In this document: positions 2,969 through 29,568 of the stretch, in pieces
Layout: every line of letters starts with the position of its first letter
Position numbering within the stretch: position 1 is the first letter of the stretch
Source of the DNA: a virus
Direction: 5' to 3' (one strand)
DNA length: 42,384 nt
Virus record (IMG/VR): IMGVR_UViG_3300044630_002302
Location: 1-42,384 of that record
Translations under genes and position numbers: made by a program
Notes under the pieces: model-generated
What the model saw: the letters and a program-made list of their open reading frames with translations, nothing else
Databases searched by the model: none
Told to the model about the DNA's origin: nothing

Positions 2969-3943
2969 ATGCCAATTGATTTCCAAAACATACCGTTTGA
3001 ACAGATAACTCGTTTCGGACAACGAACAATGTTAGAACGCCCCCTGTTCTCTGTTAGTTGGATCCTGGGGAGATTCTGTAACTATAATTGTAGTTACTGT
3101 TGGCCATATGCGAGATCAGACAAATTAGATTATCAAGATTTTAAAACATATACCAACGCTATCGATAATATCAAAACTCAAGCGAGACAAAATGGATTTA
3201 CAGAATTCCATTGGAGTTTCAGTGGAGGGGAACCTACCGCGTATCGAGAACTAATTAATCTCTTTGAACACTTACAAGATAATTGTTATCAAAGCATACA
3301 CATGACTACCAATTTAAGTCCTGGAAGTAAATGGTGGGGTGCCTGGTGTTATGCAACAAGAGATTTTTCACGACGAAGCATTACAGCAAGTTATCACTCA
3401 GAGCATGCCAAGGAACAAGAATTTGGTGATAAGTGTTTACAATTAATGCGTGACGGTGTTTATGTTACAATTAATCAGGTAATGGTGCCAGAACTGTTTG
3501 ATGAACTGTACGATCGTTGCAGTAGATTCCATGAACGTGGCATTAATGTTACACTCAAACCTCAGAGTGATCCTACAGCTAGTTGTGTAGTAGATGGATA
3601 TACAGAAGATATGGTACATAAAATGCAAACAGGATTCCCTCAACAAGCACTAGGGGAAGAAGTTTATCAAATCGCACTGTATGATCAAGAAGGTCAAGAA
3701 TATCTTTTCGATCAGGCAGAAAGATTTAATGCGTTTGGATTTAATAAATTTCAAGGTTGGACTTGCAATTCGGGATATCAAAGTGTCATAATAAGAAGTA
3801 ATGAAGTAAAGAGATCGTACAGTTGTCACGATCAGCCCTTAGGAACATTAACAGAAGGATTCAAACTGTTCACTATACCGCAGGTATGTATAACGCCAAG
3901 CTGTGTTAGTAGTGCTGACAGTAAAATACCAAAATGCAAATAG
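2969..3943 (+). CDS. Radical SAM protein (type A, Cys-rich C-terminus)
   Basis: Radical-SAM enzymes reductively cleave S-adenosylmethionine at a 4Fe-4S cluster to start radical chemistry. Cluster cysteines are C37, C41 and C44 (CNYNCSYC); FSGGEPT (94-100) is the SAM-binding GGEP motif. The C-terminus carries more cysteines in the order GWTCNSG, SYSCHDQ, VCITPSC and the final KCK, probably ligating an auxiliary cluster as in SPASM/twitch proteins. 324 residues. The layout matches the products at 12691 and 15792 (GWTC block, later CxxxxC), so the three form one subfamily. There is no Shine-Dalgarno before the ATG. Its stop overlaps the aminotransferase start (3934-3943). Substrate unknown. Confidence 0.9.
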   Translation: MPIDFQNIPFEQITRFGQRTMLERPLFSVSWILGRFCNYNCSYCWPYARSDKLDYQDFKTYTNAIDNIKTQARQNGFTEFHWSFSGGEPTAYRELINLFEHLQDNCYQSIHMTTNLSPGSKWWGAWCYATRDFSRRSITASYHSEHAKEQEFGDKCLQLMRDGVYVTINQVMVPELFDELYDRCSRFHERGINVTLKPQSDPTASCVVDGYTEDMVHKMQTGFPQQALGEEVYQIALYDQEGQEYLFDQAERFNAFGFNKFQGWTCNSGYQSVIIRSNEVKRSYSCHDQPLGTLTEGFKLFTIPQVCITPSCVSSADSKIPKCK

Positions 3944-5106
3944 ACTTAGATCACTACTATAAATTAATTTCTCAAAATAGCGAATTAAAAAAACATTTAG
4001 TCACTAGATGTCAAGGGCCTTGGGTCTATCACGGAGACACTAAAAAGTTAGATCTCCAAAGTGGAAACTCGGCATTTATCTACGGGTTCACCGATACAGA
4101 CCTCATGGATGCAAGAAATTCTTGTAATAGTTATTTTGTTAATAATTCTGATACAGAAACACATAATCAAATTACCAAATTAATTAATAGTTTAGAAAAA
4201 CATACAGGAATGACAGCATTTACTTGGGCAGTTAGTGGTAGTGATGCTGTTGAAGCTGCTATTGCTGTTAATGATCATTATTGGCGTACCCAAGGTAAAA
4301 ATAAACCAATTATACTGACTTTAGATAAATGCTATCATGGAACAACCTATCTATTAAAGAGTCTTAGAGGAACTGCACCCCAATTCAGGCATGTGACAGC
4401 ACATGCACCATTATGGATTAAGATTGAAGATCGAGAAGAGCAAGAAAGAATTTGTATTGAAGATATACATCAACAAATTATTACCAACCCTAATATAGGT
4501 GCTGTTCTATTAGAAGCTATACCGTGGATAGCAGGAGTATTACCATTTAGTAATAATTTCTGGTCTAATATTCGTGCGTTATGTACTCAACATAACATCA
4601 ATTTAATCATAGATGACGTGGCTGGATGTTTTGGTAAATTAGGCCATATAGTTAGCCACAGAAGTTTTCAAATCGAGCCGGACATTGTTGCTATAGGGAA
4701 ATCTTTAACAGGAGGATATGTTCCTTTTGGCGCTGCATTGGTATGTGATCGTATTAATCAAGCAGTGAAGGATGCTAAATGGGATCACACTCACACATGG
4801 TGTCCGGTTATGGATGGAATATATCTAGCCAACGTTATGATCAACAAGCTCGAACAAGATCTTCCTAAAGTACCTCAGATTGAACAACGATTTACAGATA
4901 TAATGAAAAAGCATCGAATACATTCAAAAGGTCAAGGATTATTCCAAGAAGTTTTCAGCCCTACTAAAGAAGAAGATCTGTATGAACATGGTCTACTAAT
5001 ATCTATTAGATCTGAGAATTCGGTTAAGATTATACTACCTATAATTGCCGACGATGAATATTTTGAATTTTTAGATACAGCAATATCAAAATTAATTAAT
5101 CTATAA
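3934..5106 (+). CDS. Class III PLP-dependent aminotransferase
   Basis: 390 residues, close to the usual length of class III (omega/GSA-type) aminotransferases. Visible landmarks: AVSGSDAVEAA (99-109), which binds PLP phosphate; CYHGT (133-137), the aromatic residue stacking on the cofactor; NLIIDD (223-228), the aspartate that pairs with the pyridine nitrogen; and IGKSLTGGY (254-262) with K256 as Schiff-base lysine. All key residues are intact. Related enzymes transaminate terminal amines or migrate amino groups within a substrate. It overlaps the radical-SAM gene upstream by 10 bases and is followed 1 base later by a methyltransferase gene, so the three probably act on one intermediate. The exact substrate cannot be assigned. 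Confidence 0.9.
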   Translation: MQIDLDHYYKLISQNSELKKHLVTRCQGPWVYHGDTKKLDLQSGNSAFIYGFTDTDLMDARNSCNSYFVNNSDTETHNQITKLINSLEKHTGMTAFTWAVSGSDAVEAAIAVNDHYWRTQGKNKPIILTLDKCYHGTTYLLKSLRGTAPQFRHVTAHAPLWIKIEDREEQERICIEDIHQQIITNPNIGAVLLEAIPWIAGVLPFSNNFWSNIRALCTQHNINLIIDDVAGCFGKLGHIVSHRSFQIEPDIVAIGKSLTGGYVPFGAALVCDRINQAVKDAKWDHTHTWCPVMDGIYLANVMINKLEQDLPKVPQIEQRFTDIMKKHRIHSKGQGLFQEVFSPTKEEDLYEHGLLISIRSENSVKIILPIIADDEYFEFLDTAISKLINL

Positions 5107-5107
5107 A

Positions 5108-5710
5108 ATGCAACTAGACCTAAATCATTTTCACCATTGGATGCGTGCGGTTCGACAAAGTTCTGATCCTATGCGTACCATGGACGCATTTTGGGCGGGT
5201 CAAATGAAGAGCAAATCTTGGCTGGTGAACGAACTTAAACGCCAGCGTGGCAATGTCAAATCATGGCCTACTATAGATATTCATGGCGGTTGGGTTGGAA
5301 CCTTGGCAAGTATGCTATTTCAGAGCGGTATGTATATTGATCATATTAATAGTATCGATATTGATCCGGAATGTGAAGCTGTTGCTAACACAATGAATCA
5401 AATAGAATACGAAGGTAACAAGTTTAAGGCCATTACAGCTGATATGTGCAGTTTCAAAAGTAATGCTGATATTATCATTAACACCAGTTGTGAACATATC
5501 ACACAAGAACAATACAATACTTGGTTGGCATTACAACCTAACTCGCTGTTTGTTCTGCAAAGCAACAACTACGACATACCCGAACATGTTAGAACTGCTA
5601 AAGATCTAGAAGAGTTTAAACAACAAAGCGGCCTTGATGTCATTTGGTCAGGACATCTTGAAACACAGTTGTATACACGTTGGATGATCATAGGAAAGAA
5701 AAATGTTTAA
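5108..5710 (+). CDS. Class I SAM-dependent methyltransferase-like protein
   Basis: 200 residues with a Rossmann methyltransferase pattern: motif I TIDIHGGWVG (55-64), motif II INSIDIDPE (80-88) with the acidic residue expected to bind the SAM ribose, ITADMCSF (109-116), and IIINTSCEHI (122-131) after strand 4. The motif I glycine loop is shorter than usual. The C-terminal third is beta-rich (YTRWMIIGKK). It follows the aminotransferase by one base and overlaps the next gene by 8 bases (5703-5710), so it belongs to the same operon. Target unknown; an amino or hydroxyl group made by its neighbours is a reasonable guess. Confidence 0.65.
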   Translation: MQLDLNHFHHWMRAVRQSSDPMRTMDAFWAGQMKSKSWLVNELKRQRGNVKSWPTIDIHGGWVGTLASMLFQSGMYIDHINSIDIDPECEAVANTMNQIEYEGNKFKAITADMCSFKSNADIIINTSCEHITQEQYNTWLALQPNSLFVLQSNNYDIPEHVRTAKDLEEFKQQSGLDVIWSGHLETQLYTRWMIIGKKNV

Positions 5711-6278
5711 GATGGTTCCGTGGTCTTTAGATTTAGATCTAACAGAATTTTATATCAAGGCTGAGGCTAAAGGTTTTAAGAACAATAGCACACAAAAAAT
5801 GTTGGTTGATTGTTTTGACAATGAAAGACATAAACAAACCTGGATCTTATATTATGACAACAAAGCTATAGGTAGTGTTGCGGCACACAGTTTAGATTTA
5901 CCACAATTAGGTGAAGATGCTTATCGTATCTGCGCTCGAACTTGTATATTAACAGATGAATTACCTCTTACAAGTTTACGAACTATTTCTGGAATTATCA
6001 ATCATCAAAATTATACAGCTCAATATTTAATACCAGCCTGCATTAGTTGGGCACCACCGTGGGGCGATTTATATATCACCAGCACAGAAAATGCTGTAGG
6101 ATCACAACGATTGGTTAACAGAATATTTTGTCCTGCACTTGAGGCAACAGGTGTATTAGAATTTGCAGGAAAACATCTCTATAGAAATACTGAACAATCT
6201 TTCTGGAAGGTTAACGTTAATAAATTTAACGAGGAATTAGATACACACGGTCGCTGGACTGATATAGTCTTTGAGTAA
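5703..6278 (+). CDS. Putative GNAT-like acyltransferase
   Basis: 191 residues. The order of predicted elements (WILYYDNKAIGSVAAHSL as a strand-turn-strand, then YRICARTCILTD as a strand, then a helix from LTSLRT, then GDLYITSTEN and a final strand region) resembles the GNAT fold, but the acetyl-CoA loop (Q/RxxGxG/A) is not clear, so the assignment is tentative. It is the last gene of the plus-strand operon and overlaps the methyltransferase by 8 bases. Its 3' end overlaps the convergent oxygenase gene by 42 bases (6237-6278), so both C-termini are encoded by one stretch of DNA. Confidence 0.5.
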   Translation: MFKMVPWSLDLDLTEFYIKAEAKGFKNNSTQKMLVDCFDNERHKQTWILYYDNKAIGSVAAHSLDLPQLGEDAYRICARTCILTDELPLTSLRTISGIINHQNYTAQYLIPACISWAPPWGDLYITSTENAVGSQRLVNRIFCPALEATGVLEFAGKHLYRNTEQSFWKVNVNKFNEELDTHGRWTDIVFE

Positions 6279-6815
6279 TTCTTTCAATCTCCCATAGCCC
6301 ATTCTTCTATTTTCACCAATAACCCTAACAACGATACTTACACAAAATCTTCTATGATCAGAAAGATTGATAACATCGTGTATTTCGCTAGCATTAATTA
6401 TTGTAGGTTTGCTGATTTGATGCTGATGATCTAGAGTACAATCTTGTCGATCACAGGCCCAATAGTCTGTGCCGATAGGACTTTTCATTAATTGTAGTTC
6501 TTTGTTTTCTTTAAGTTTAAACCAGCGCATCCATGTTTCGCCTTGATCATATACCCAATTCATTTTACATGCATCGGGAGGATCTATCTCGTCAAGATGC
6601 ATGAAAATATTTCCATTTGGAGGACAATAAAATAATTCCGAATGTTCTATTTCAAGATTGTTGTCATTTAACCAGTTGTAAAATTCCGGACTAATAGCAT
6701 CTTTGGGGATAACAAACTGAGCAGGAGCTTCGTCGGTAACAGGCAGCTTAGAAAAATAATCAGGATCATTCAATATATAATCAATCCCAATATTTAAATC
6801 CACACAATATTCCAT
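6237..6815 (-). CDS. Cupin/2OG-type oxygenase, single domain
   Basis: 192 residues. Putative metal site H73-L-D75 (FMHLDEID), distal H146 (ASEIHDVIN) and an arginine at 155/156 (DHRRFCVSIVV). The central pattern (MNWVYD, then METWMRWF-like strands, then PTIINASEIH) parallels the N-terminal domain of the two 438-residue oxygenases just upstream (INTSVPH and EIRTSASLQF there), so this looks like a stand-alone relative of that domain. It starts on the stop of the upstream gene (TAATG at 6815), so it is translationally coupled. The substrate is unknown. Confidence 0.65.
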   Translation of the reverse strand: MEYCVDLNIGIDYILNDPDYFSKLPVTDEAPAQFVIPKDAISPEFYNWLNDNNLEIEHSELFYCPPNGNIFMHLDEIDPPDACKMNWVYDQGETWMRWFKLKENKELQLMKSPIGTDYWACDRQDCTLDHQHQISKPTIINASEIHDVINLSDHRRFCVSIVVRVIGENRRMGYGRLKELLKDYISPATVCI

Positions 6816-7357
6816 TATTCGAGATCCTTGCGTAAAAAACTTATGATCAGAACACCTCTTACAGAATTAGTATTATTGTAAGCCCAATGATCGGTGCTCT
6901 CATCAAATATATTTAAGTCTCCATTTTTTAATCTACGATCTACACCCCCAACAACTAACCCTGTTCCGGGAAGGGTATCTAATGTTAAATGATATTTTAT
7001 CACGGTGGTTGAATGATCATCAACTGCGCTTTCATCGTGATCTTGATGTTCGTCTATTTTGCTATGTGGACGTAGGATGGAAAACGTAGCTAACAGTGGA
7101 CGCACATTTAGATCCATTAATAGATCAATAGTTTGAGAACTTCGATCTTTCCATGGTTTGTATAGATACATCAGGGGATATACCTGCCAAAAATAATCTG
7201 TATTTTTTGGACATTTTAAAAGACCGTCGATTCCGTCATCGCTGTAAGGATAATCATAATATTGATCTAAAGGAATATTTTGATATTCTTTTTGGATCGT
7301 TTCAAAATTATCTAATAATCGTTGATGATTTAATTTAGGAAAGGCGGTTGTAAACAT
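6815..7357 (-). CDS. Aspartyl/asparaginyl beta-hydroxylase-like oxygenase
   Basis: The frame is open to 7411, but the ATG at 7357-7355 (MFTTAFPKL) overlaps the stop of the upstream gene as TAATG and is chosen as start; this gives 180 residues. The core follows the AspH/LpxO family: H104-x-D106, then KYHLTLD (121-127), GLVVGGVDRRLKNGDLNIFD, then the distal histidine H157 in STDHWAYNN and R167 in SVRGVLIISF. Members hydroxylate Asp/Asn side chains or lipid A acyl chains with Fe(II), O2 and 2-oxoglutarate. The C-terminus LRKDLE is also preserved as an isolated remnant at 8775-8795, evidence that this gene was once part of a duplicated pair. Confidence 0.85.
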   Translation of the reverse strand: MFTTAFPKLNHQRLLDNFETIQKEYQNIPLDQYYDYPYSDDGIDGLLKCPKNTDYFWQVYPLMYLYKPWKDRSSQTIDLLMDLNVRPLLATFSILRPHSKIDEHQDHDESAVDDHSTTVIKYHLTLDTLPGTGLVVGGVDRRLKNGDLNIFDESTDHWAYNNTNSVRGVLIISFLRKDLE

Positions 7358-7394
7358 TATAGAATAGTTTCGCAGTTGCTGAGATCTAAAGTTA
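7355..7394 (+). repeat. 40-bp perfect direct repeat (copy 1)
   Basis: Identical to 8798-8837. It covers the TAATG junction and the last codons of the two-domain oxygenase. The two genes elsewhere differ at many positions, so this block is unusually conserved. Confidence 0.9.
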
Positions 7395-8673
7395 GTACAT
7401 CGTGTACCCAAATGTTTCCGTAAATGTGTATTCGATCTGTGTTGCTTCTGTTGTCAGTTGAATGTAGATGTGTGGTATTAACAATATAACACCAACCATC
7501 GGCAGGAATATGTAATTCTTTTCCAGCAATGGTAAATTTAGCATCTGGATCGGTTTCTATAGCTATATGAAATCTAAATTTATCGTGCCCATCTTGATGC
7601 GCAGGCAATGCCGTGCCTGGAGTATGGATTGCTATTTGTATATCATGTGGAGGTATAGGCATATTTTCAAATATTTCTAATCCGTATCCAAAGCAACACT
7701 CTCTGGCTCCTAGCCCTTGAAAATGATCCACTCTATTCTGAGGCATATCAGCATTGTATTCGTCTTTGGCAATGATCCGTAGCCAAGGAACTGGTCCTTT
7801 GGTATCGTCACCCCAGGTAAGCATTAACCATCCAGTGTCTGGCATTGCACCAGGTTTTTCTAATTTTTCATTAGGATCATTTTTCCACATGTACTTGTGT
7901 GTGCCGTATCTCCAGACCCAATCACTGTATCGTTCCATAGTTTCTTTATGCCAATCTCGCAGTCTTTCAAGGTCAATTTTAAACCACCGTTTAATGACCC
8001 ACCCTGTGTCTACAACAGGATAATCAAACACACAGTCATCTAATGTTTCAGACAATGGATTACTTTGATTATCTGTGATAACCTTAATATCTGCATTGGA
8101 TAATTTCTTTAAGATAGTTTCAAAGTCCCATGGTTCTATAAACTGCAACGATGCAGATGTACGTATTTCAGGAGCAACAATGATATGCGGTACACTGGTA
8201 TTGATCACACAAGGACCTTGATCATCCCAAATGTCTGCAGGAGTGATTCCTTTTACGTCTACGGGAATGTAGGCGGTAACATTAGGAGTAACCCAATCGG
8301 TAGATGCTTCATTACCATACATGACTGTTTTATCAACACCGGGCATATTGTAAAATTGTACCTGACTCTTATTATACGTTAACGTCCAATTAACAGCAGC
8401 CGGCAGTATTTCACCTTCCCCATTACAATCGATATGTGCAATATGTGGATCTAACGCGAGCCAATGCCAAATAACAACATTTTGAACATTGAGATCGCGA
8501 TCCTGCAACCATTTTAAGAATTCTGGATTAAGTACTTCTGGACTTAGTTTAGCTTTATGTACGAAATTATCAACAACAGGCACTGCTGTTAATATATCGA
8601 TCTTAGTTTTATCGATTAAATTATTAACATCAAATGGAATTAATGTTGAAACATTTTGTGTGTACGGTAGCAT
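7357..8673 (-). CDS. Two-domain oxygenase (tandem HxD...H...R modules), copy 1
   Basis: 438 residues with two separate dioxygenase-like signatures. The N-terminal domain has H80-I-D82 (HIAHIDC), H163 (TSVPH) and R171 (EIRTSASLQF). The C-terminal domain has H349-Q-D351 (LPAHQDGHDK), H394 (THLHSTDN) and R404 (DRIHIYG), with the AspH-like sequence KFRFHIAIETD between. The linker (about 205-300) is Trp-rich (YSDWVWRYGTHKYMW). Both sites look intact, so one polypeptide could carry out two oxidations. The start has no Shine-Dalgarno; a late motif lies 31 bases upstream. It is paralogous to the protein at 8800-10116, with a 40-bp identical 3' end. Confidence 0.75.
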   Translation of the reverse strand: MLPYTQNVSTLIPFDVNNLIDKTKIDILTAVPVVDNFVHKAKLSPEVLNPEFLKWLQDRDLNVQNVVIWHWLALDPHIAHIDCNGEGEILPAAVNWTLTYNKSQVQFYNMPGVDKTVMYGNEASTDWVTPNVTAYIPVDVKGITPADIWDDQGPCVINTSVPHIIVAPEIRTSASLQFIEPWDFETILKKLSNADIKVITDNQSNPLSETLDDCVFDYPVVDTGWVIKRWFKIDLERLRDWHKETMERYSDWVWRYGTHKYMWKNDPNEKLEKPGAMPDTGWLMLTWGDDTKGPVPWLRIIAKDEYNADMPQNRVDHFQGLGARECCFGYGLEIFENMPIPPHDIQIAIHTPGTALPAHQDGHDKFRFHIAIETDPDAKFTIAGKELHIPADGWCYIVNTTHLHSTDNRSNTDRIHIYGNIWVHDVLTLDLSNCETIL

Positions 8674-8774: not shown

Positions 8775-8800
8775 CTACTCTAAATCTTTACGTAAAACAT
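8775..8800 (-). pseudogene. Deletion remnant of an AspH-like hydroxylase gene
   Basis: Directly after the stop of oxygenase copy 2 the minus strand keeps the overlapping TAATG start of a downstream gene, followed immediately by codons for L-R-K-D-L-E-stop (8795-8775). Copy 1 has the same TAATG followed by a 180-residue hydroxylase that ends in LRKDLE. The two LRKDLE coding ends differ only at codon third positions. What remains is the first bases plus the last six codons and the stop, now out of frame with the ATG (which reads MFYVKI-stop). This is best explained as an internal deletion of a duplicated hydroxylase gene. Confidence 0.75.
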
Positions 8801-8837
8801 TATAGAATAGTTTCGCAGTTGCTGAGATCTAAAGTTA
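8798..8837 (+). repeat. 40-bp perfect direct repeat (copy 2)
   Basis: Identical to 7355-7394, at the 3' end of the second two-domain oxygenase gene. After one mismatch a further 9 bases match. Confidence 0.9.
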
Positions 8838-10116
8838 CTACATCGTGCATCCATACATCTCCATATATGTGTACTCGATCTGTAGTACCTCTATTATCGG
8901 TTGAGTGTAGATATGTAGTATTAACAAGATAACACCATCCATCGGCTGGAATATGGGTTTCTATTCCGTTAATAATAAATTTAGCATCTGGATTAGTTTC
9001 TACAGCTATATGGAATCTAATCTTATCAGGTTCGTCTTGATGAGGAGGTAATTTTGTTTTTGGTGTGTGAATAGAAAACTGTAGGTCGTGTGGTGGGATA
9101 GGCATGTTCTCAAAGATTTCTAAACCGTATCCAAAACAACATTCTCTGGCTCCTAATTTCTGACCATGATCGGCTCTATTCTCAGGCATCGTGGTGTTAT
9201 ACTCATCTTTGGTGATAGTACGCAACCAAGGAACAGGACCTTCTCGATCATCTCCCCAGGTAAGCATTAACCATCCGGTGTCTGGTTGAAAACAATCTTT
9301 TAAAGTTTCTTGAGGATCGTACTTCCACATATATTTGTGTGTGCCGTATCTCCAAACCCAATCGCTATAGCGTTCCATAGTTTCTTTATGCCAGGATTTT
9401 AATCTTTCAAAATCAACTTTGAACCATTTCTTAATAATCCACCCGGTGTCTACGATAGGATAATCAAACAAACAATCAGTTAGTTGACTGGCCAATGGAT
9501 TGTGTTGCTTATGCTGAACTAATCGAAATTTATGATTAGATAATTTTTCTAATACTGATTCAAAGTCCCAAGGTTTTGCAAATTGTAAAGAAACTGAGAT
9601 TCTCATTTCAGGTGCAACAACCATGTGAGGTACACTAATATTAATTAAACAGGGACCTTGATCAGACCAATCATCTATAGGTTTGATTCCTTTAACATCT
9701 ACCGGAATATAAGCAGTGACGTGTGGAGTGACCCAATCTGCAGCCGCCTCGTTTCCGTACATAACGGTTTTATCTACGTTAGGCATATTGTAAAAATTTA
9801 CTTTACTACCGGATTCAGTTAAAGTCCAATTAATTGCACAGGTTGTTTTCGTCACTCCGGTTTCGTCACAGTCAATGTGTGCAATATGAGGATCTAATGC
9901 TAACCAGTGCCAAACAACAACACTTTCTACATCTAGATCAAGAGATTGTAACCATTTTAAGAATTCTGGATTAAGCACTTCAGGACTTAATTTTGTTTTA
10001 TGTACAAAGTTATCGCTGGCTGGGGATTCTGTTAATATTTCAATCTTAGACTTGTCGATAAGATCGTCAATATTAAATGGAATAAATTTGGAAATAGGTT
10101 GAGTATATGGAAGCAT
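8800..10116 (-). CDS. Two-domain oxygenase (tandem HxD...H...R modules), copy 2
   Basis: 438 residues, the same length as the neighbouring paralogue and alignable end to end without obvious gaps. The N-terminal site is HIAHIDCDE, ISVPH and EMRISVSLQF; the C-terminal site is LPPHQDEPDK, TYLHSTDN and DRVHIYG. All presumed metal ligands and both arginines are kept, so both copies are under purifying selection and may act on different but related substrates. The ATG lies exactly 5 bases after an AATAAATA late motif and has no well-placed Shine-Dalgarno. Unlike copy 1 it is not followed by a hydroxylase gene, only by its remnant. Confidence 0.75.
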   Translation of the reverse strand: MLPYTQPISKFIPFNIDDLIDKSKIEILTESPASDNFVHKTKLSPEVLNPEFLKWLQSLDLDVESVVVWHWLALDPHIAHIDCDETGVTKTTCAINWTLTESGSKVNFYNMPNVDKTVMYGNEAAADWVTPHVTAYIPVDVKGIKPIDDWSDQGPCLINISVPHMVVAPEMRISVSLQFAKPWDFESVLEKLSNHKFRLVQHKQHNPLASQLTDCLFDYPIVDTGWIIKKWFKVDFERLKSWHKETMERYSDWVWRYGTHKYMWKYDPQETLKDCFQPDTGWLMLTWGDDREGPVPWLRTITKDEYNTTMPENRADHGQKLGARECCFGYGLEIFENMPIPPHDLQFSIHTPKTKLPPHQDEPDKIRFHIAVETNPDAKFIINGIETHIPADGWCYLVNTTYLHSTDNRGTTDRVHIYGDVWMHDVVTLDLSNCETIL

Positions 10117-19366: not shown

Positions 19367-20084
19367 TTTTACCTTTTAGACTTTTGAATATTAAATTAGA
19401 AAAATCTTCTAATCTATCTCCAATTATACATTCAGCAATCATATGGATCCTTGTTTGAGAACTATGATTTATTATAGCATGATTGCGAGTATTATTCAAG
19501 ATATAAATGCTACCTTCTTGCCAAGGTAAAACCCCACACTCCTCGCTAATCATTTCGCATCCGGTTGGATGAGTAATAGCTAGATTAATCGCTATAGTTT
19601 CATTTAATACATCTAGATCTTTAAGAGATAAATGTCGACCCCAGTCAGGTAGATCATTATGAACATCAATATATCCGCCTGGATCGAGCTTCATGAATCG
19701 TAATCTTTTAAATCCCTGTACAGGAAAATTCTTCCAAAAGTTTACAATGGTAGGAACACTATTGGCTAACTCAGTCCAATCAAAATGTTGTTTAGTAATA
19801 TCATCGTGATGTGTAGTTTCTGAGATATTGACCCCATGAACACAACAACTGCTCCATCCTTGGTGTATTTCTCCGCTACGATGTGTAACATAGTAGGGTT
19901 CGGCAGCAGTCATTTCTTGTTTAAAACTGTTGAGATCAAAATCTATATCTAATTTTAACCAACCAATTGTATCTTGTTTAAACAACCATCTGGTGGTATT
20001 TACAGGATCAGTAACATTAACATCAACAGCCCAATTTAAATTTTTATTTTGATCGGCAAAGTCTAATAAATGCTGAGGAATCAT
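19347..20084 (-). CDS. Asp/Asn hydroxylase-like 2OG oxygenase
   Basis: The frame opens at 20099, but the ATG at 20084-20082 forms an ATGA overlap with the stop of the upstream PP-loop gene and is preferred; this gives 245 residues. Core residues: H142-N-D144 (YIDVHNDLPDWG), the strand ETIAINLAIT, H192 (NTRNHAIINHS) and R202 (SQTRIHMIAE). The N-terminal 120 residues are an extra domain containing a His-rich loop (TTHHDD) and a CC pair. The layout fits an AspH-type hydroxylase with an N-terminal extension. Substrate unknown. Its 3' end overlaps the unrecognised 471-residue gene by 20 bases. Confidence 0.78.
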   Translation of the reverse strand: MIPQHLLDFADQNKNLNWAVDVNVTDPVNTTRWLFKQDTIGWLKLDIDFDLNSFKQEMTAAEPYYVTHRSGEIHQGWSSCCVHGVNISETTHHDDITKQHFDWTELANSVPTIVNFWKNFPVQGFKRLRFMKLDPGGYIDVHNDLPDWGRHLSLKDLDVLNETIAINLAITHPTGCEMISEECGVLPWQEGSIYILNNTRNHAIINHSSQTRIHMIAECIIGDRLEDFSNLIFKSLKGKNVISNI

Positions 20085-20869
20085 TGCGATAATGCCCAAT
20101 TACGTTCTTGGCACCAAAAACATTTTCCACAAGTTGGTATTGTTTGTCCCGGAACATAGGTTCGATAATCAATTCCTTCGAAGACGTCTGGAAAGGTCTG
20201 AGTATCTCCCTCGCAGGATCTCGTCTTGCTCAGTAAATTTTCAAGATTGAAATTTTTATATTGTCTGATAATCCAATCTTTAGATGTGAATCTAAAGGGA
20301 TGACAAACATATATTCCCTGTTGAAAGTCAACCAACAGATGAATATTTTCTTCAGTAAGTTCGTTATTGCGATCGTCTGGTTTAAAGGTAATACTATCCA
20401 GCGGCGGATTTTTGGTTATTCCGGCAAACCAAGCATTGATTTTTTGAGTGAAACATACATATTCAGCATGACTTCTGACACTGATTTGATCACCACTTTT
20501 CATATGACCATATTCGTCTTTGATAATCGGTCCGATATTACCGTATTCAATATCAGGAGCAATAAAGTTTTCGTGTCTGATAAACTCTATAGTAGGAAAT
20601 CTAACACATAACTCATAATAGACATTTAGTGAATCCCACTTTTGCCAAGGTCTCGTTTTCCACATACGAATGTTGCTGATAATGTGTACCTGGATTTTGA
20701 GATTATTTTTAACAATCAAGTCACAGAGTATGTAGGCCAGCATGGCCGAATCGGCACCACCGCTAATACTAACAGCGATCTTTTTCCATTCAGGATTTAA
20801 AACAAATGCTACCCCATCAATGTCATGGGTATAGTCTTTATAGGCCCAATTTTTTATTAATGTATTCAC
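20081..20869 (-). CDS. PP-loop ATP pyrophosphatase, QueC/ExsB-like
   Basis: 262 residues. SISGGADS (34-41) is the PP-loop that binds ATP and releases pyrophosphate. The C-terminus has C219 (TRSC) and CGKCFWC (C247, C250, C253), the cysteine layout of the QueC zinc site (C...CxxCxxC), although the gap between the first and second cysteine is about 20 residues longer than in QueC. QueC turns a carboxylate into a nitrile through an amide for 7-deazaguanine synthesis. No QueD, QueE or FolE is visible here, so this is probably a relative that activates a carboxylate in another substrate. It overlaps the B12/radical-SAM gene by 32 bases and the hydroxylase by 4. Confidence 0.72.
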   Translation of the reverse strand: MNTLIKNWAYKDYTHDIDGVAFVLNPEWKKIAVSISGGADSAMLAYILCDLIVKNNLKIQVHIISNIRMWKTRPWQKWDSLNVYYELCVRFPTIEFIRHENFIAPDIEYGNIGPIIKDEYGHMKSGDQISVRSHAEYVCFTQKINAWFAGITKNPPLDSITFKPDDRNNELTEENIHLLVDFQQGIYVCHPFRFTSKDWIIRQYKNFNLENLLSKTRSCEGDTQTFPDVFEGIDYRTYVPGQTIPTCGKCFWCQERNWALSQ

Positions 20870-22316
20870 TCTTGATTTCTCTAGCTCGTATAGTTAAATT
20901 ATTTTGCACTTCCCAACCATTTTCTTGTTCGTGTAACCCCAAGGCAAACTCGATACTTTCTGAAACAGACAGCATAGAAAACAATTTCCATGAATCTAGA
21001 TATCCTGGTCGAAATCTACGAATCTGTTCATCAACAGCTTCTATAGCATCATACATATTCATATTTTCATTTTCCCAGATAGTTAGATCATTAGAAAAGA
21101 AATTATGTCTATTGTATAATTCTCTTTTTTCCTGTTTCATAATTTTATATCCGTATTTTTCATAATCTTCGTCAATGGTGGATTTTTTTCCGGTAAGATT
21201 AATATTAAACGGAAAAGCGATGACATTTTGATCACTCCAATTAGTACACAACCAATCAAGTGCCAGTGCTATACTTTCCTTAGTTTCTTTTGGTAAACCA
21301 TATACCAATGAAACGGTTCCACGATATTTTTTTATTGAGCTAAGGAAGTAATCTCTAGTATCCAATAACCCTGCTTTAATCTTGTCAGGGTGCATACCCT
21401 TACCAATAGATTTACCAGTATCGTGGTTAAATGTTTCAATACCAAAATAATGAGACCAGACTCCGGCGTCAGCTAACAATTCTTTTTGTTGCGGACGACT
21501 GAATAAAATGTCCCCACGTATAAAAGCACTAAAATTAGGTTCAAAAGACAAACGTTTAGCTATATTGCCCATCTTGACTAATTTTTCGTCACGATCGTTT
21601 AAAGTTTCATCTGCGACCTGGTAGTTACTAACACCATAAAGATCATAGTTTCTTTGTAACTCGGTATAGAATCCGTCTAGGTCACGAGTAGTATCTTCTT
21701 TCACACCTAACACAGGAAAGTTACAGAAGGTGCAAGCGAATTTACAACCTCTGGATATTTCTGTAGATAAGGTTTCATTAGGATAGATAAAATCTCTAGG
21801 TTCATAATCGATGCTAAGATCACTCATCGGCCATGCTGGATAGAAAGCATTGGCATCGATATACCATCCGTTTTTTCTTGGAACGCCTTTAGGGAAAGTT
21901 CCATTGCTAAATTTATATTTTAACACTGTTAATACCGCATGTTCTCCAAATCCTCCGATAATATAATCGATGTCATCGTAGATTGGAAAATGGATACTAG
22001 GATTTTGTCCGCCTGCTAGCGTCATTATATCTGGATAATTTTCTTTGATATGTCTTAATAAATCAATCAATATTTTTTGGACTGGATCTGATGAATAATT
22101 GATCCATGTCGCACTGAAACCAACCCAAGATAGTTGCCCGGCTTGGTGTCTTATTTTAATCAGCTCTTTAAGTTGATCCAGAGTCCAATGATAGAAAAAG
22201 TCGACTACTTCAATGTCCCATCCTTCTTTTCGTAATACCGTGGCGATCCGATATGCACCACCAACACGTTCTAATCCGCCGGATCTTTCGTAGCCTGTAA
22301 ATATGATTGCTTTCAT
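20838..22316 (-). CDS. B12-binding-domain-type radical SAM protein
   Basis: 492 residues. An N-terminal Rossmann-like domain (KAIIFTGYERSGGLERVGGA, then WVGFSATWI and MTLAGGQNPS) matches the cobalamin-binding domain of class B radical-SAM enzymes, but the DxHxxG histidine that ligates cobalt is not seen, so base-off B12 binding may be lost. The radical-SAM motif is C191, C195, C198 (SRGCKFACTFC). A helical C-terminal domain of about 130 residues follows. Family members methylate unreactive carbons or join sulphur and carbon chains. First gene of the 22316-14729 minus operon; its ATG lies exactly 5 bases after a GTTAAATA motif and has no Shine-Dalgarno. Confidence 0.85.
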   Translation of the reverse strand: MKAIIFTGYERSGGLERVGGAYRIATVLRKEGWDIEVVDFFYHWTLDQLKELIKIRHQAGQLSWVGFSATWINYSSDPVQKILIDLLRHIKENYPDIMTLAGGQNPSIHFPIYDDIDYIIGGFGEHAVLTVLKYKFSNGTFPKGVPRKNGWYIDANAFYPAWPMSDLSIDYEPRDFIYPNETLSTEISRGCKFACTFCNFPVLGVKEDTTRDLDGFYTELQRNYDLYGVSNYQVADETLNDRDEKLVKMGNIAKRLSFEPNFSAFIRGDILFSRPQQKELLADAGVWSHYFGIETFNHDTGKSIGKGMHPDKIKAGLLDTRDYFLSSIKKYRGTVSLVYGLPKETKESIALALDWLCTNWSDQNVIAFPFNINLTGKKSTIDEDYEKYGYKIMKQEKRELYNRHNFFSNDLTIWENENMNMYDAIEAVDEQIRRFRPGYLDSWKLFSMLSVSESIEFALGLHEQENGWEVQNNLTIRAREIKSEYINKKLGL

Positions 22317-22321
22317 ACCAG

Positions 22322-22329
22322 TATTTAAC
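22322..22329 (-). promoter_or_regulatory. T4-type late promoter motif, 5 bases before an ATG
   Basis: GTTAAATA on the minus strand, then CTGGT, then the ATG at 22316. The spacing would place the transcription start at the start codon. Confidence 0.5.
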
Positions 22330-22348
22330 TATAGCTATAACCCCTTCA

Positions 22349-22356
22349 AATAAATA
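22349..22356 (+). promoter_or_regulatory. T4-type late promoter motif, 7 bases before an ATG
   Basis: AATAAATA, followed by TGAAGCT and the ATG at 22364. It forms a divergent pair with the motif at 22322-22329. Confidence 0.5.
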
Positions 22357-22363
22357 TGAAGCT

Positions 22364-23059
22364 ATGGAAAACTTTGAATACTATTACAATAATACGCCAG
22401 ATCACGGATTGGTTAGGAATAATCTAATCTATACCAGCTTAATATCCAAAGATAAAAAGACATTCGTACAATGGTACTATAATGATACTGAATATCATCA
22501 AGGTAAAAATCAAATAATTGATAAAGATCTTATGTCCGAAAAATGGGCAAAAGAACTCTATTTTTTAAATCAAATGTCTACAAATAAATCCGATCTGGTA
22601 CCTAAGATTTTAGATATAGATCTCAATGAAAAGAAAATCTATTTAAAGATAGACGGTGTAGATTTTTGGCAACGCAGTTTGGATAACAATTGTAACTTTG
22701 ATCAAGTATTACCAGATTGGCAAGATCAAATGTTAGCTATTTTACAAGCACACAAAGATCTAGGATTTTACAAATACAGTCTGCATCCTAGCAGTTATTT
22801 TATTATAGATGGGCAACTAAAGAGCATTAATTATTTCTTCTGCCATACCCCCGACGAACCAATGGTTCCGTTGAATCATTTCCGTAGCCATATTAGTAAT
22901 GATCGTCAGGCTAAATTAGAAGGATATTTTACTGCCCACAATCTAAGTTGGGATAGCGTATTATCATATGATATATTACAGCAAATGACTTTTGAAAGTT
23001 TTCGAAGTAACTACTCTAGTGATTTTATAGAAAGAGCAAAGAAAATTTATGTATCTTAA
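22364..23059 (+). CDS. Kinase-fold protein with degenerate active site (putative pseudokinase)
   Basis: The frame is open from 22307, but the ATG at 22364 (MENFEYYYNN) lies just after the late motif and is preferred; this gives 231 residues. The order of elements looks like the aminoglycoside-phosphotransferase/LPS-kinase fold: EKWAKELYFLNQM (59-71) as helix C, VPKILDIDLNEKKIYLKID as strands with hinge, then a catalytic-loop-like segment KYSLHPSSYFIIDG (137-150) followed by LKSINYFF. Where active kinases have HGDLHPxN and IDF, this has S139 for Asp, S144 for Asn and N156 for the metal-binding Asp. If the fold call is right, it cannot use the standard phosphotransfer mechanism. It overlaps the next gene by 11 bases. 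Confidence 0.5.
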   Translation: MENFEYYYNNTPDHGLVRNNLIYTSLISKDKKTFVQWYYNDTEYHQGKNQIIDKDLMSEKWAKELYFLNQMSTNKSDLVPKILDIDLNEKKIYLKIDGVDFWQRSLDNNCNFDQVLPDWQDQMLAILQAHKDLGFYKYSLHPSSYFIIDGQLKSINYFFCHTPDEPMVPLNHFRSHISNDRQAKLEGYFTAHNLSWDSVLSYDILQQMTFESFRSNYSSDFIERAKKIYVS

Positions 23060-25089: not shown

Positions 25090-25118
25090 CGGATCTTTAT
25101 ACCTTTAAAGTTCTAACC

Positions 25119-25126
25119 TATAAATA
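25119..25126 (+). promoter_or_regulatory. T4 late promoter, perfect consensus, 5 bases before an ATG
   Basis: TATAAATA is identical to the T4 late -10 consensus. AATTC separates it from the ATG at 25132, and there is no Shine-Dalgarno. Predicts a leaderless late mRNA. Confidence 0.7.
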
Positions 25127-25131
25127 AATTC

Positions 25132-25995
25132 ATGCTTACACTCAATGGTAAACCTTTTATTACACTAGACCCTTATTTAGACATTCCTAAGATGTTAAGT
25201 CTTAGAGATGAATGGGAATTTCTACTCTGCAAAAGCTGGGATAAAATACGCACAGGTGTTTGGAATGCCGGTGGACATGCTCCCGAGGACATATATAGTC
25301 CATACGAAGTATTCCGCGAAAAAGGACTCTTATACTACGTTTACGAGCGTGCTAATGAGGAGAGAAAGACTAATCCTAAGTTAGATCAACAACTAAGATA
25401 TTTTGAAGATAAGGATGATAAGCACGGATTAAGTAGACTGCTTAAATTAAAATATGGAGCATTTGATCCATATAACATCTTAAACATCAGAAAAACTGTT
25501 AGTAGCCATTATGCGGCCGATGCTTATATTTTTACAGAAGAAGATTGGAATACTTATAGTTGGGTGGATTATGTTGATGAGTTTCCTAATCTTAAAAACT
25601 TTGTAGAAAGTTTGCCTATGGACCGTTTGGGAATCGTAACAGTGTTCTATAACGAACATTATATTCCATTAGGTCATCATAGAGATTTTAATTACTTTCC
25701 AAGAGAACGTGGTAATAAACCAGAAACATTCCCACATCGCCAAGAACTTATATGGTTCCGCTTTGACATTGATCGTCCTTTTTATCTATTTGATCTAGAC
25801 GAAAAACTAGGAACAGTTAAAAACGCTGTACCTGTTGAAGGACATGCAGCATTTTTCAACCATCATAATTGGCACGGAAATTTTGATTCTTATTCCAAGA
25901 GCAGTATAACTGTTAAAGTTGAAGGTAGATTCACCCCGGAGTTTCGAGAACTAATCGGGGTGAATAATTTGGAATACTATTTTAAAGAAGATTAA
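25132..25995 (+). CDS. 2OG-type oxygenase, HRD...WH family, member 2
   Basis: 287 residues. Metal site H183-R-D185 (LGHHRDFNYF) and distal H248 (NHHNWHGN). At the position of the 2OG-binding arginine there is K262 (SITVKVEG), whereas the paralogue at 23738 has R229. The N-terminal domain has AFDPYNILNIRK like the YDPYQFVFLK block of the paralogue. The R-to-K change may alter co-substrate binding, or the enzyme may use a different 2-oxoacid. It follows a perfect late promoter motif, stands alone on the plus strand, and its stop overlaps the convergent tail-fibre-like gene by 4 bases (25992-25995). Confidence 0.75.
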   Translation: MLTLNGKPFITLDPYLDIPKMLSLRDEWEFLLCKSWDKIRTGVWNAGGHAPEDIYSPYEVFREKGLLYYVYERANEERKTNPKLDQQLRYFEDKDDKHGLSRLLKLKYGAFDPYNILNIRKTVSSHYAADAYIFTEEDWNTYSWVDYVDEFPNLKNFVESLPMDRLGIVTVFYNEHYIPLGHHRDFNYFPRERGNKPETFPHRQELIWFRFDIDRPFYLFDLDEKLGTVKNAVPVEGHAAFFNHHNWHGNFDSYSKSSITVKVEGRFTPEFRELIGVNNLEYYFKED

Positions 25996-27353
25996 TCGTA
26001 AAGTGGAATATATTTTGTAACTCCATTAACAGTAACTTCTAACCAGCTATCGACAGTAACAGCATCTACAGGAGTATTTCCAGTTTCTCCTATTAGGTTT
26101 ATATTAGCTGTCATTAATTTACCATCTGTACCATCGAAAATCATAGTACTTGCGTCACTGAATAAGGAACCTGTTAAATCAGCTCTTAATCCACCACGTA
26201 TTATTGCATCGCCATTTACGTCTAAAGTAGCTTGAGCGTTCTCTTGATTTACACCTAATTGACCAAAACAGTCAAATGTTAAATAGTTAGCTGGATCAAT
26301 TGCATCTTCACCTACAGTAGCTACAAAGAATTTTCCTGGAAGGTGGGTTGCTGTTGGATTACCAGTAGGATCTACTTGACTACCAATAAGAACTACAGAT
26401 GCGTCACTATCAACAGACGATTGATAACCTTTAAAGATTATAGAACCTAAAGATTCACCACCATCGAAGTCAATGGAATTACCACTTATATCTTTCTTAG
26501 TAGTATAAATGTCAACATGATTCGAATCATCAATGATATCATCTATATCATTGGTTACATTTTCAGTACTGTTTAATACTATTCTAAACTGTGGTTCATC
26601 AATAAGACCATTACCTTGAACGGTTACAGGAGTAAGACCAGTAGCAATAATAAAATTGTTATCAACAGTTAATCCAACAGTTGATAACGTGTTACCAAAT
26701 AGAGTATTACTAACACCGTCTACCAACACAGTAGAATCGTCACCAAATACTGATCCAACTAAATTTCCTTGTAATGCTTCACCTACATCAATACCAATTG
26801 GAGAACCACCAATAGTTGAACCAAATGGAAGATTAACGGATGAACCACTTGCTGTTAGTACAGCATTACCTAGGTAAAGAGAAGTACCACTTAGATATAA
26901 ATCTTTGAATCTTGCTGTTGGACTACCAATGTCAAATACTAGGCTAGAACTAGGAATAATGTCGCCTTTAACTGTACCATCAAGGTTAATTTTTCCTTCA
27001 ATAGCATCTACCAATAAACTTGAATCATCAGCAAATAATGACCCCTGGAATCCATCAGCTTGTATAACTCCACTATAATCTGGTAGACTAACTGTGGCTA
27101 TAATTTGATTACCGCTATCATTATATGTGAAAGTAATACCGGAATGACCTGCATGTGTAAACAACGGTTCTACAGCATCTTGTATATCTTCATCTGAAAA
27201 ACCAGATACTGGAGTTAGTGCATTTGGCAATGTAGCACCATCACCAATATATAATTTTTTATCGTTGGTAGTCCATAACAGCTCACCTTGAGCTAATGGC
27301 ACTATCATGGCATTTTTTTCTGCTTCAGTGCCTCTGCGAATTTGTAAGGGCAT
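25992..27353 (-). CDS. Tail-fibre-like virion structural protein with repeats
   Basis: 453 residues. The start MPLQIRRGTEAEK...PLAQGELLWTTNDKKLYIGDG is the classic N-terminal block of phage tail-fibre and hyaluronidase-type structural proteins. A repeat of the form GS[LV]F-x-D-[DA]-S-[ST]-x-[LIM]-[VF]-D recurs three times (GSLFADDSSLLVDA, GSVFGDDSTVLVDG, GSLFSDASTMIFDG). The middle is Gly/Asn/Ser/Thr/Asp-rich beta, typical of trimeric fibres. It has a good Shine-Dalgarno (CAGGAG) and a late motif 36 bases upstream, as expected for a virion protein. Located between the oxygenase island and three more oxygenases, it is a plausible modification substrate, but nothing proves that. Confidence 0.85.
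   Translation of the reverse strand: MPLQIRRGTEAEKNAMIVPLAQGELLWTTNDKKLYIGDGATLPNALTPVSGFSDEDIQDAVEPLFTHAGHSGITFTYNDSGNQIIATVSLPDYSGVIQADGFQGSLFADDSSLLVDAIEGKINLDGTVKGDIIPSSSLVFDIGSPTARFKDLYLSGTSLYLGNAVLTASGSSVNLPFGSTIGGSPIGIDVGEALQGNLVGSVFGDDSTVLVDGVSNTLFGNTLSTVGLTVDNNFIIATGLTPVTVQGNGLIDEPQFRIVLNSTENVTNDIDDIIDDSNHVDIYTTKKDISGNSIDFDGGESLGSIIFKGYQSSVDSDASVVLIGSQVDPTGNPTATHLPGKFFVATVGEDAIDPANYLTFDCFGQLGVNQENAQATLDVNGDAIIRGGLRADLTGSLFSDASTMIFDGTDGKLMTANINLIGETGNTPVDAVTVDSWLEVTVNGVTKYIPLYD
26658..26688. repeat. 9-bp inverted repeat inside the fibre gene
   Basis: GTTATCAAC (26658-26666) and GTTGATAAC (26680-26688) are perfect complements separated by 13 bases inside the coding sequence. They could form a hairpin in mRNA or be a recombination spot; chance cannot be excluded. 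Confidence 0.35.
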
Positions 27354-27389
27354 ATCTAAAACTCCTGGAGTATTCTTTCCTAACTCATA

Positions 27390-27397
27390 TATTTATG
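27390..27397 (-). promoter_or_regulatory. T4-type late promoter of the fibre gene
   Basis: CATAAATA on the minus strand, one mismatch to TATAAATA, 36 bases before the ATG at 27353. The leader contains a Shine-Dalgarno, unlike the island genes. Confidence 0.6.
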
Positions 27398-27441
27398 TCA
27401 AGAGAAACAATCCATAATACTTAAAAAGTTACTATAACAGC

Positions 27442-27813: not shown

Positions 27814-27851
27814 CGTTACTCCTCGCGGTCGAAGGTAACGATCGCTACAAC

Positions 27852-27859
27852 TATTTAAC
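27852..27859 (-). promoter_or_regulatory. T4-type late promoter motif
   Basis: GTTAAATA on the minus strand, 38 bases before the ATG at 27813. Confidence 0.45.
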
Positions 27860-27883
27860 TTTTATGATGTTAATAAATTGTAA

Positions 27884-28441: not shown

Positions 28442-29014
28442 TTAAGAATACTCCACATCTGCAGCCAATACAAATCTATAATTGTTGCTTTGAACAATAC
28501 CGGGTCTATGATAAACATTGCTAGGATATACTACCCAGGTAAAATCGCTTGGACGTATGAAAAATTTGCCTTCTCCGTTAGGACCATTTGGTGCCATCTC
28601 TGTTCCACAATAATCTCGATCGTTAACATCCTCAGGTATGTGTAGATATAAAACACCACTCATCATACTAGATCCCGGATTTTTAGGATGCCAGTGATCG
28701 TGCCACAGGTTTTCGCGATCTTCAGCACCCTCAAGATTAGTCATATAACTCCACGCCATCATGTTTGATACTTTAACTTCACGACCTAGATACATGAACA
28801 CACTAAACAAAAAGCTCATACGATACTTTAACCATACTTCTTCTGGTCGTGCAAATATATTTTCTTTGGTTTGATATTTTGGACTATTGGTAAAATAATT
28901 ACCGTCAGCTATTATATCTTTGATAATTTCGCAGGCTTCTTGATTATCTTGAGATGTGATAATGCCGCTGAAATCAAATTTGCGTACCAGTGAGTTTTGA
29001 TCGATTACATTCAT
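28442..29014 (-). CDS. Putative 2OG-Fe(II) oxygenase (PF13759-like)
   Basis: 190 residues. WHDHWHPKNPGSSMMSGVLY (104-123) matches the WHxHxHP...SGVYY signature of the phage-type 2OG oxygenases. The metal site probably uses H105 or H107 together with distal H169 (SNVYHRPGI), with R180 (NYRFVLAADV) as 2OG partner. The beta strands VLYLHIP and FTWVVYPS frame the jelly roll. The start overlaps the preceding gene by 4 bases (29011-29014). Substrate unknown; it probably acts with its two neighbours. Confidence 0.82.
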   Translation of the reverse strand: MNVIDQNSLVRKFDFSGIITSQDNQEACEIIKDIIADGNYFTNSPKYQTKENIFARPEEVWLKYRMSFLFSVFMYLGREVKVSNMMAWSYMTNLEGAEDRENLWHDHWHPKNPGSSMMSGVLYLHIPEDVNDRDYCGTEMAPNGPNGEGKFFIRPSDFTWVVYPSNVYHRPGIVQSNNYRFVLAADVEYS

Positions 29015-29568
29015 TTGAAATTAAATGCTATAGAAATTCTTACATCGTCGGACATATTTGCTTCAACGTAATGACGCATATATGCTGGAAATATTATCAA
29101 GAGTTTTTCTCTTGGGATTTGTTTTATCTTGGTTACATTATTTTCATTATTTTCGTATTCATGTATCCAATCAACAAATGAGTCTGGTCGTTCGATAACT
29201 AAGTCGCCGCAATCTTTAGGTGCTTTAACATATAGCACTGCTGATATATACGACCCTGGATGATTATGAGCAGTATTGTAATGGTATTTTTCGTTTACAT
29301 TGAACCAATAATTTCCCAATGTAGGTTCTTTGGTAATTCCTAGATCGTTATAGACTTCTTGAACTTTTGTTGTAACAGAATCGATAAGGCCGGTCATAAA
29401 AGGTTTTTCATACCTTGTGTAACTCTTACTTTGCCATCCCCCTCTGTTACTGTACGTTTCACCTGGGATTCTATTTTTTAAGTCAATTATGGCTGACTCT
29501 ATACTGGTTAGCACATAGTCTAACTCTTCTACAAATACAGCATTGGTGAAAGGTGCGATTTTAATCAT
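29011..29568 (-). CDS. Putative 2OG-Fe(II) oxygenase (PF13759-like)
   Basis: The open frame extends to 29649, but that part lies within the tRNA-Gly gene, so the ATG at 29568-29566 (MIKIAPFTNA) is the start; this gives 185 residues. Signature: YHYNTAHNHPGSYISAVLYV with H101-N-H103, distal H166 (AYMRHYVEA) and R177 (DVRISIAFNF). It belongs to the same family as the gene downstream, with the HxH in place of HxD. First of three coupled oxygenase genes. The ATG begins only 5 bases from the tRNA 3' end, so it may be released by tRNA processing of a longer transcript. Confidence 0.83.
   Translation of the reverse strand: MIKIAPFTNAVFVEELDYVLTSIESAIIDLKNRIPGETYSNRGGWQSKSYTRYEKPFMTGLIDSVTTKVQEVYNDLGITKEPTLGNYWFNVNEKYHYNTAHNHPGSYISAVLYVKAPKDCGDLVIERPDSFVDWIHEYENNENNVTKIKQIPREKLLIIFPAYMRHYVEANMSDDVRISIAFNFK

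Follow-up and report, generated by a model that had tools for sequence, protein, structure and literature searches.

A conserved radical SAM and oxygenase gene set in phages and, in part, Bdellovibrionota: a possible tailoring cluster for envelope or adhesin glycoconjugates

The viral DNA IMGVR_UViG_3300044630_002302 comprises 42,384 nucleotides (the window), and the interval examined, positions 2969-29568, holds nine radical S-adenosylmethionine (radical SAM) genes together with oxygenase-type genes, transferases and a tail fibre gene. A first interpretation made from the letters (the sequence-only reading) had counted nine radical SAM genes, and all nine open reading frames (ORFs) score above the PF04055 cut-off with one match each and an invariant CxxxCxxC motif. 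Judged by gene content across viral loci, the interval is a conserved core plus accessories, since conservation is lacking for the class III aminotransferase at 3934, for the radical SAM gene RS_20838 and for the oxygenases at 27884, 28442 and 29011, which lie past the tail fibre. The core would consist of RS_16693, RS_15792, RS_11279 and RS_10204, usually with RS_14729, RS_12691 and RS_2969.

Four proteins of the window and one alignment served as queries in scans of IMG/VR, and these gave two sets of non-redundant viral loci. Set A contains 19 loci anchored on RS_14729, and set B contains 37 loci of at least 18 kb anchored on RS_16693; L009, L012, L045 and L078-L081 are excluded from the counts as copies of one virus. 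The sets have a few contigs in common, and the anchor gene is present by construction. Homologues are named by best BLASTP hit, so paralogues may swap names, and loci are bounded at 10-kb flanks. Counts over 19 and over 37 refer to sets A and B, respectively. The radical SAM genes are as follows.

RS_2969, 2969..3943, plus strand: short radical SAM (PF04055); core member, 26/37 viral loci
RS_10204, 10204..11286, plus strand: PF04055, with a sub-threshold C-terminal SPASM match; core, 34/37 loci
RS_11279, 11279..12694, plus strand: N-terminal-twitch radical SAM (NF033640); core, 37/37 loci
RS_12691, 12691..13656, plus strand: short radical SAM (PF04055); 26/37 loci
RS_13649, 13649..14767, plus strand: short radical SAM (PF04055); 13/19 and 4/37 loci
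RS_14729, 14729..15814, minus strand: short radical SAM (PF04055); homologues in bacterial metagenome-assembled genomes (MAGs)
RS_15792, 15792..16700, minus strand: short radical SAM (PF04055); core, 37/37 loci, usually adjoining RS_16693
RS_16693, 16693..17961, minus strand: N-terminal-twitch radical SAM (NF033640); the most conserved core gene
RS_20838, 20838..22316, minus strand: PF04055 over cut-off, with a B12-binding-like N-terminus; accessory, 1/19 and 9/37 loci

Paralogue grouping places the genes at 2969, 12691, 13649, 14729 and 15792 in a short type and those at 11279 and 16693 in a long N-terminal-twitch type, with RS_10204 separate and RS_20838 as a B12-binding type. The long pair matches NF033640 (twitch-domain radical SAM) at 405.9 bits for RS_11279 and 317 bits for RS_16693 against a curated cut-off of 170, and the mean column identity of RS_16693 reaches 70% in a 19-sequence alignment. 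The B12-binding family PF02310 matches RS_20838 at 26.1 bits, below its cut-off of 32.1. Extra invariant cysteines in the alignment of RS_14729 suggest auxiliary clusters. Viperin-type antiviral defence was rejected since the best score to NF038283 is 55.7 bits, far under the cut-off of 180.

These genes are genuinely linked. In set A, RS_16693, RS_15792, RS_11279, u22307 and OG_23049 are present in 19/19 loci, MT_5108 and OG_23738 in 18/19, RS_12691 and RS_10204 in 16/19, and the QueC-like gene and OG_19347 in 15/19. In set B, RS_15792, RS_11279 and OG_23049 occur in all 37 loci, followed by RS_10204 (34/37), u22307 (33/37), OG_23738 (32/37), the QueC-like gene and OG_24517 (31/37 each), the GNAT-like gene (30/37), and MT_5108, RS_2969 and RS_12691 (26/37 each). 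Gene order is kept as well: RS_15792 comes next after RS_16693 in 35/37 loci, and the QueC-like gene lies directly upstream of RS_16693 in 29/37. The same ordered set is found in dozens of independent viral contigs while GenBank phage records have almost no related proteins, which is more than chance would give. The single system proposed by the sequence-only reading survives as this conserved syntenic set, whose homologues are linked rather than always dispersed, and not every gene of the interval belongs to it. Its partners are probably MT_5108, the QueC-like gene, OG_23049, OG_23738, OG_24517 and u22307, often with OG_19347 and u17951. Three features of the interval (u17951, u22307 and the tail fibre with its Mtd_N domain at 25992-27353) were absent from the sequence-only reading.

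MT_5108, 5108..5710, plus strand: class I methyltransferase-like, with conserved GGW.G and SIDIDP.C; core, 18/19 and 26/37 loci
GNAT_5703, 5703..6278, plus strand: possible acetyl/acyltransferase, PF21926 sub-threshold (15.1 bits); 30/37 loci
u17951, 17951..19366, minus strand: predicted GT-A/nucleotidyltransferase-like and class I methyltransferase-like domains
OG_19347, 19347..20099, minus strand: Asp_Arg_Hydrox-type oxygenase, PF05118 37.6 bits; 15/19 and 16/37 loci, often adjoining u17951
QueC_20081, 20081..20869, minus strand: PP-loop ATPase with a C-terminal Cys motif, PF06508 sub-threshold; not canonical QueC
u22307, 22307..23059, plus strand: kinase-fold-like; core, 19/19 and 33/37 loci
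OG_23049, 23049..23738, plus strand: Asp_Arg_Hydrox-type oxygenase, PF05118 27.5 bits; core, 37/37 loci
OG_23738, 23738..24520, plus strand: probable oxygenase by motif only (conserved HxD...H...R); 32/37 loci
OG_24517, 24517..25089, minus strand: oxygenase with invariant HxD...H; 31/37 loci
Tail fibre (Mtd_N), 25992..27353, minus strand: PF18454 34.4 bits; island context, possible acceptor

MT_5108 has no match in the Pfam scan, and its homologue in Pelagibacter phage Mosig is annotated as a methyltransferase; the methyltransferase and GNAT calls made earlier are matched by motifs or sub-threshold hits only. The QueC-like protein has an SGGADS loop and C-terminal CxxC motifs, and the canonical QueC substrate motifs are absent. 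In 15 sequences of the family, SGGxDS is present in 15/15, while C(x)8CxxCxxC, YxQxHxxE, VPxRN and YPDC (motifs from PMC13329287) are found in 0/15. The family has its own invariants, RxWKTxPW and TRSCEG, and HP in 14/15. Its SGGxDS loop and C-terminal Cys cluster resemble QueC, QatC and Cap9, and its long C-to-CxxCxxC spacing resembles the QatC variant; it differs in that the canonical YxQxHxxE, VPxRN and YPDC are missing in 15/15 (PMC13329287). A QueC/7-deazaguanine assignment was rejected on the missing motifs, and no queuosine pathway is recognised, in agreement with the earlier statement that no 7-deazaguanine pathway is evident.

No family matches u17951. Its domains were modelled with AlphaFold2 (predicted local distance difference test scores 86 and 82) and compared by Foldseek. 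The N-terminal model resembles GT-A or nucleotidyltransferase folds (best a cytidylyltransferase, E 4e-4; a xylosyltransferase, E 6e-4) and the C-terminal model resembles class I methyltransferases (NNMT, E 3e-4). Template modelling (TM) scores are low, and the predicted GT-A/methyltransferase fusion is a fold-level hint. For u22307, a weak profile match to TTK kinase (E 1e-4) was obtained, and the alignment position of the catalytic Asp is apparently held by another residue.

Relatives of RS_16693 occur in at least 537 IMG/VR stretches, and the block is common to hundreds of uncultured viruses from aquatic sources. Among 50,697 GenBank phage records, RS_14729, RS_20838, RS_2969 and OG_23738 have no match, and RS_16693, RS_11279 and MT_5108 have weak matches only. 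The sequence-only reading called the virus T4-like; the window encodes no Gp23, whereas six long island-bearing contigs of 145-364 kb do. The 117-kb contig G015 has 22 radical SAM genes, and its island is flanked by baseplate/tail-fibre genes on one side and by more tail-fibre genes on the other. The islands of G015 (L083-L088, at about 44-105 kb of the contig) and of G014 (L099-L102, 21 radical SAM genes) are larger, and amidinotransferase-, AMP-ligase-, sulfotransferase- and nitroreductase-like genes were noted in them by eye. Both carry a Trp halogenase and G015 also a thiolase; besides G015, a halogenase is above cut-off in four of the 22 island records. Fatty-acid-desaturase-like genes stand near radical SAM genes in two viral loci (L019, L035) and one Bdellovibrionota locus (L273, G116).

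The isolate Pelagibacter phage Mosig EXVC030M (MT647606, L287) has an analogous island between VrlC and the tail fibre, annotated with MoaA-like, ArnB-like, carbamoyltransferase and methyltransferase genes. Some Mosig accessory genes are closer to the Bdellovibrionota locus G116 than to the viral set. In Vibrio phage K566 (OZ196521, L286), radical SAM-type genes are interleaved with two GT8 genes above the Pfam cut-off, and a gene annotated as PagP, for lipid A acylation, is found close to the cluster.

Part of the core is also present in some bacteria of predatory type. A profile search with RS_14729 leads to loci in bacterial MAGs. The Bdellovibrionota data are MAGs whose completeness is unstated, and MAG contigs L183 and L190 resemble phage contigs and are left out of the chromosomal count. 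One locus, on a 936-kb Bdellovibrionia contig, adjoins serS and an EPSP-synthase-family gene; two integrase genes lie beyond this island, which makes a mobile origin possible. The island neighbourhood on a second contig, from Bdellovibrionales, includes serS, an EPSP-synthase-family gene and a SIS-domain gene. With the RS_2969 profile, 17 of 291 Bdellovibrionota genomes give a hit (E 1e-40 or better). RS_2969 shares about 46-51% identity with its Bdellovibrionota homologues, which in the loci inspected usually lie near homologues of RS_11279, RS_10204 and MT_5108 and often near a GT-A-like gene. RS_11279 homologues of 43-49% identity occur in several of the islands, and tail genes are not evident in the loci. 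A peptide-pattern search of bacterial genomes for RS_16693 returned none. The idea that RS_16693 is virus-only was rejected, since a distant homologue is found in Bdellovibrionota islands through RS_14729.

We infer that the core proteins share one pathway. The favoured reading, given somewhat less than an even chance, is that the cluster tailors a glycoconjugate of the envelope or of an adhesin. Phages would keep the core as one tailoring system in the tail-fibre/host-recognition region. The radical SAM enzymes may perform C-H chemistry on glycoconjugate sugars or amino-acid substituents (epimerisation, deoxygenation, and C-C or C-S bond formation). The oxygenases would hydroxylate these sugars or substituents, which could also be methylated and acylated. 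The PP-loop ATPase may form an amide link, and a GT-A-type enzyme (the u17951 N-terminal domain, or separate glycosyltransferases in some relatives) would move the unit onto an envelope glycan or adhesin. The outcome in phages could be altered host recognition, a changed infected-cell surface or virion decoration, and in Bdellovibrionota a change of their own cell surface.

Besides synteny and co-occurrence, this glycoconjugate reading is favoured by the GT-A-like plus methyltransferase-like architecture of u17951, by the nucleotide-sugar genes (epimerase and DegT) in several relatives' islands, and by a family of GT-A-like proteins that keeps a DxD-type motif and is found in loci of both phages and Bdellovibrionota. 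The interleaved GT8 genes of K566 are the clearest glycosyltransferase link to related radical SAM genes. The Mosig island, the position of the G015 island and the Bdellovibrionota islands without evident tail genes point the same way. Several observations weigh against it. Pfam recognises no glycosyltransferase in the window, the GT-A call for u17951 is a fold match with TM-scores of 0.2-0.4, and the relatives' GT-A-like family has no match in Pfam, PHROGs or PDB. A reference-set glycosyltransferase candidate is found in just 12/19 and 9/37 loci (10-kb flanks), with 8/9 as the third count, and GT8 is Pfam-confirmed in K566 alone. Moreover, oxygenases of the Asp/Asn-hydroxylase type and radical SAM proteins related to RiPP (ribosomally synthesised and post-translationally modified peptide) maturases would fit a peptide equally. 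A broader formulation is rather doubtful: a new pathway, common to Bdellovibrionota and tailed phages (the largest of at least 364 kb), in which five to twenty-odd radical SAM enzymes act with a QueC-like ligase and Fe(II) oxygenases to make an unprecedented surface or adhesin modification for recognising or altering Gram-negative cells.

The strongest rival, unlikely in our estimate, is that virion-protein side chains, most simply those of the neighbouring tail fibre, are modified in trans by the radical SAM enzymes and Asp/Asn-type hydroxylases in a RiPP-like manner without a precursor. A tail fibre does lie within the interval, Mtd_N is present in 13/22 island records, the oxygenases include PF05118 families, and the nearest solved radical SAM relatives include the peptide-modifying YydG and SkfB. 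However, the neighbouring tail proteins are diverse when compared with the column identity of RS_16693, and in related phages the tail-fibre region serves in general as a hypervariable site of insertion (PMC7029224). Bdellovibrionota carry part of the core without an evident tail-fibre gene, and therefore the tail fibre is not needed. A virion-protein substrate, one of those named by the sequence-only reading, is thus less compelling.

Nor do the islands share a common precursor, as the sequence-only reading had noted for the interval. The genes are densely packed and frequently overlap, so that space for small genes is scarce: island sequence outside ORFs of at least 140 aa amounts to 1.1% of 855 kb. 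Small ORFs (22-139 aa) in the gaps of 49 islands yield no family common to the islands. The sole recurring family (57-82 aa, KFMEIQRQNVVL-like) is found in 11/49 loci (L049, L128, L130, L150 and others) and was rejected as a general precursor. Oxygenases and B12-dependent radical SAM enzymes also occur in RiPP radical SAM/SPASM clusters, and the island resembles such clusters in its radical SAM enzymes with auxiliary-cluster cysteines. It differs from them in the missing precursor family and in RiPP maturase scores, which are all far below the curated cut-offs in the 7/9 radical SAM proteins scanned.

That the infected cell produces a small diffusible compound, whether a signal, an inhibitor or a cofactor, is improbable. 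The Trp halogenase and thiolase of G015, the nitroreductase-, AMP-ligase- and amidinotransferase-like genes seen by eye and the halogenases in four more of the 22 records would suit it. Against this, these extras are sporadic, no precursor is linked, and neither nonribosomal peptide synthetases, polyketide synthases nor exporters were noticed among the core genes. Placed just below it, and likewise improbable, is a loose pile-up of auxiliary genes without a common pathway. Hypervariability is known for the host-recognition cluster of pelagimyophages (PMC7029224), and the genes at 3934, 20838 and 27884-29011 turn over freely; the invariant presence of RS_15792, RS_11279 and OG_23049, the fixed neighbours of RS_16693 and the joint recurrence of part of the core in Bdellovibrionota argue against it. 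Phage DNA or RNA hypermodification is highly improbable. Pathways of nucleic-acid modification do include radical SAM, methyltransferase, GNAT-like and PP-loop genes, and the island has tRNA genes and a thymidylate-synthase-like gene (794-1696) in its vicinity. Against this, the 7-deazaguanine pathway is not recognised and QueC motifs are absent, hallmark hypermodification enzymes having not been searched systematically.

Phages rich in radical SAM genes have been remarked on before. The T4-like TARA_ERS488813_N000010 has 12 such genes (PMC5332604), and Aeromonas phage 332-Vera (PQ474292) has eight in a structural cluster, termed highly unusual (PMC12390700). They share with the island a large number of radical SAM genes, those of 332-Vera being among structural genes, and the accessible parts of these two papers define no conserved gene set or partners. 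Radical SAM cassettes are mentioned in the pelagimyophage host recognition cluster, where their function is not analysed (PMC7029224). These cassettes and the Mosig island resemble the present island in lying between VrlC and the tail fibre and in having MoaA-like radical SAM genes, an MT_5108 homologue and Asp_Arg_Hydrox genes. In contrast, at E 1e-5 none of RS_14729, RS_16693, RS_11279 and RS_2969 is matched in Mosig, whose radical SAM genes are fewer and more distantly related. Vibrio phages K566/K567 have five radical SAM-type genes related to RS_16693/RS_11279 (22-25% identity) among their GT8 genes; unlike in the window, no oxygenase, QueC-like gene or short radical SAM core is detected, and the homology is remote. 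No description of the conserved set or its partners was found in the open-licence papers searched. The suggestion of an undescribed system accordingly stands for the block as a system, as far as the accessible parts of these papers go, and not for the richness in radical SAM genes.

Radical SAM enzymes are seldom numerous in phages, and here a conserved set is found in hundreds of viral stretches and partly on bacterial chromosomes. Should its members act in a single pathway, they would offer many uncharacterised enzymes for C-H functionalisation, Fe-S radical chemistry would be used during infection, and a testable chemical layer of phage-host recognition would be added. Since the cultured Mosig, which infects Pelagibacter HTCC1062, has an analogous island, part of the question is accessible.

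The remaining genes of the interval, and one just outside it, are listed below.

AT3_3934, 3934..5106, plus strand: class III aminotransferase, PF00202 141 bits; accessory, 0/19 and 3/37 loci
OG_6237, 6237..6815, minus strand: probable oxygenase, like the OG_7357 N-terminal domain (BLASTP E 0.001), with HxD motif
OG_6815, 6815..7411, minus strand: Asp_Arg_Hydrox type, PF05118 65.5 bits
OG_7357, 7357..8673, minus strand: PF05118 33 bits at the C-terminus, N-terminus like OG_6237
OG_8800, 8800..10116, minus strand: tandem paralogue of OG_7357 (73% identity), PF05118 43.1 bits
OG_25132, 25132..25995, plus strand: OG_23738 paralogue (30% identity, E 8e-26)
OG_27884, 27884..28441, minus strand: 2-oxoglutarate (2OG)-Fe(II) oxygenase, PF13640 56.4 bits; 0/19 and 1/37 loci, not a conserved member
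OG_28442, 28442..29014, minus strand: oxygenase-like, PF13759 20.9 bits (cut-off 27); 0/19 and 0/37 loci, not a conserved member
OG_29011, 29011..29577, minus strand: 2OG-Fe(II) oxygenase, PF13759 82.4 bits; 0/19 and 1/37 loci, not a conserved member
Thirteenth oxygenase-type gene, 1693-2247: just outside the interval

The aminotransferase named earlier is clear. The twelve oxygenase-type genes are unequally supported: seven pass a Pfam cut-off (6815, 7357, 8800, 19347, 23049, 27884 and 29011) and OG_24517 aligns with the Pfam-confirmed OG_23049 family by hhalign (E 6e-6), while those at 28442, 6237, 23738 and 25132 are less well supported. OG_6237 has no match in the Pfam scan; because it resembles the N-terminus of OG_7357, OG_7357 and OG_8800 may each have two oxygenase domains. 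hhalign gives no oxygenase support for 23738 and 25132, whose call comes from the HxD...H...R motif alone. Oxygenases of the 29011 type are ordinary in cyanophages, with 182 GenBank phage records matched. The thymidylate-synthase-like gene is situated near the island, and just past the island's oxygenase end seven tRNA genes occupy 29574-32124, two of them with Met (CAT) anticodons.

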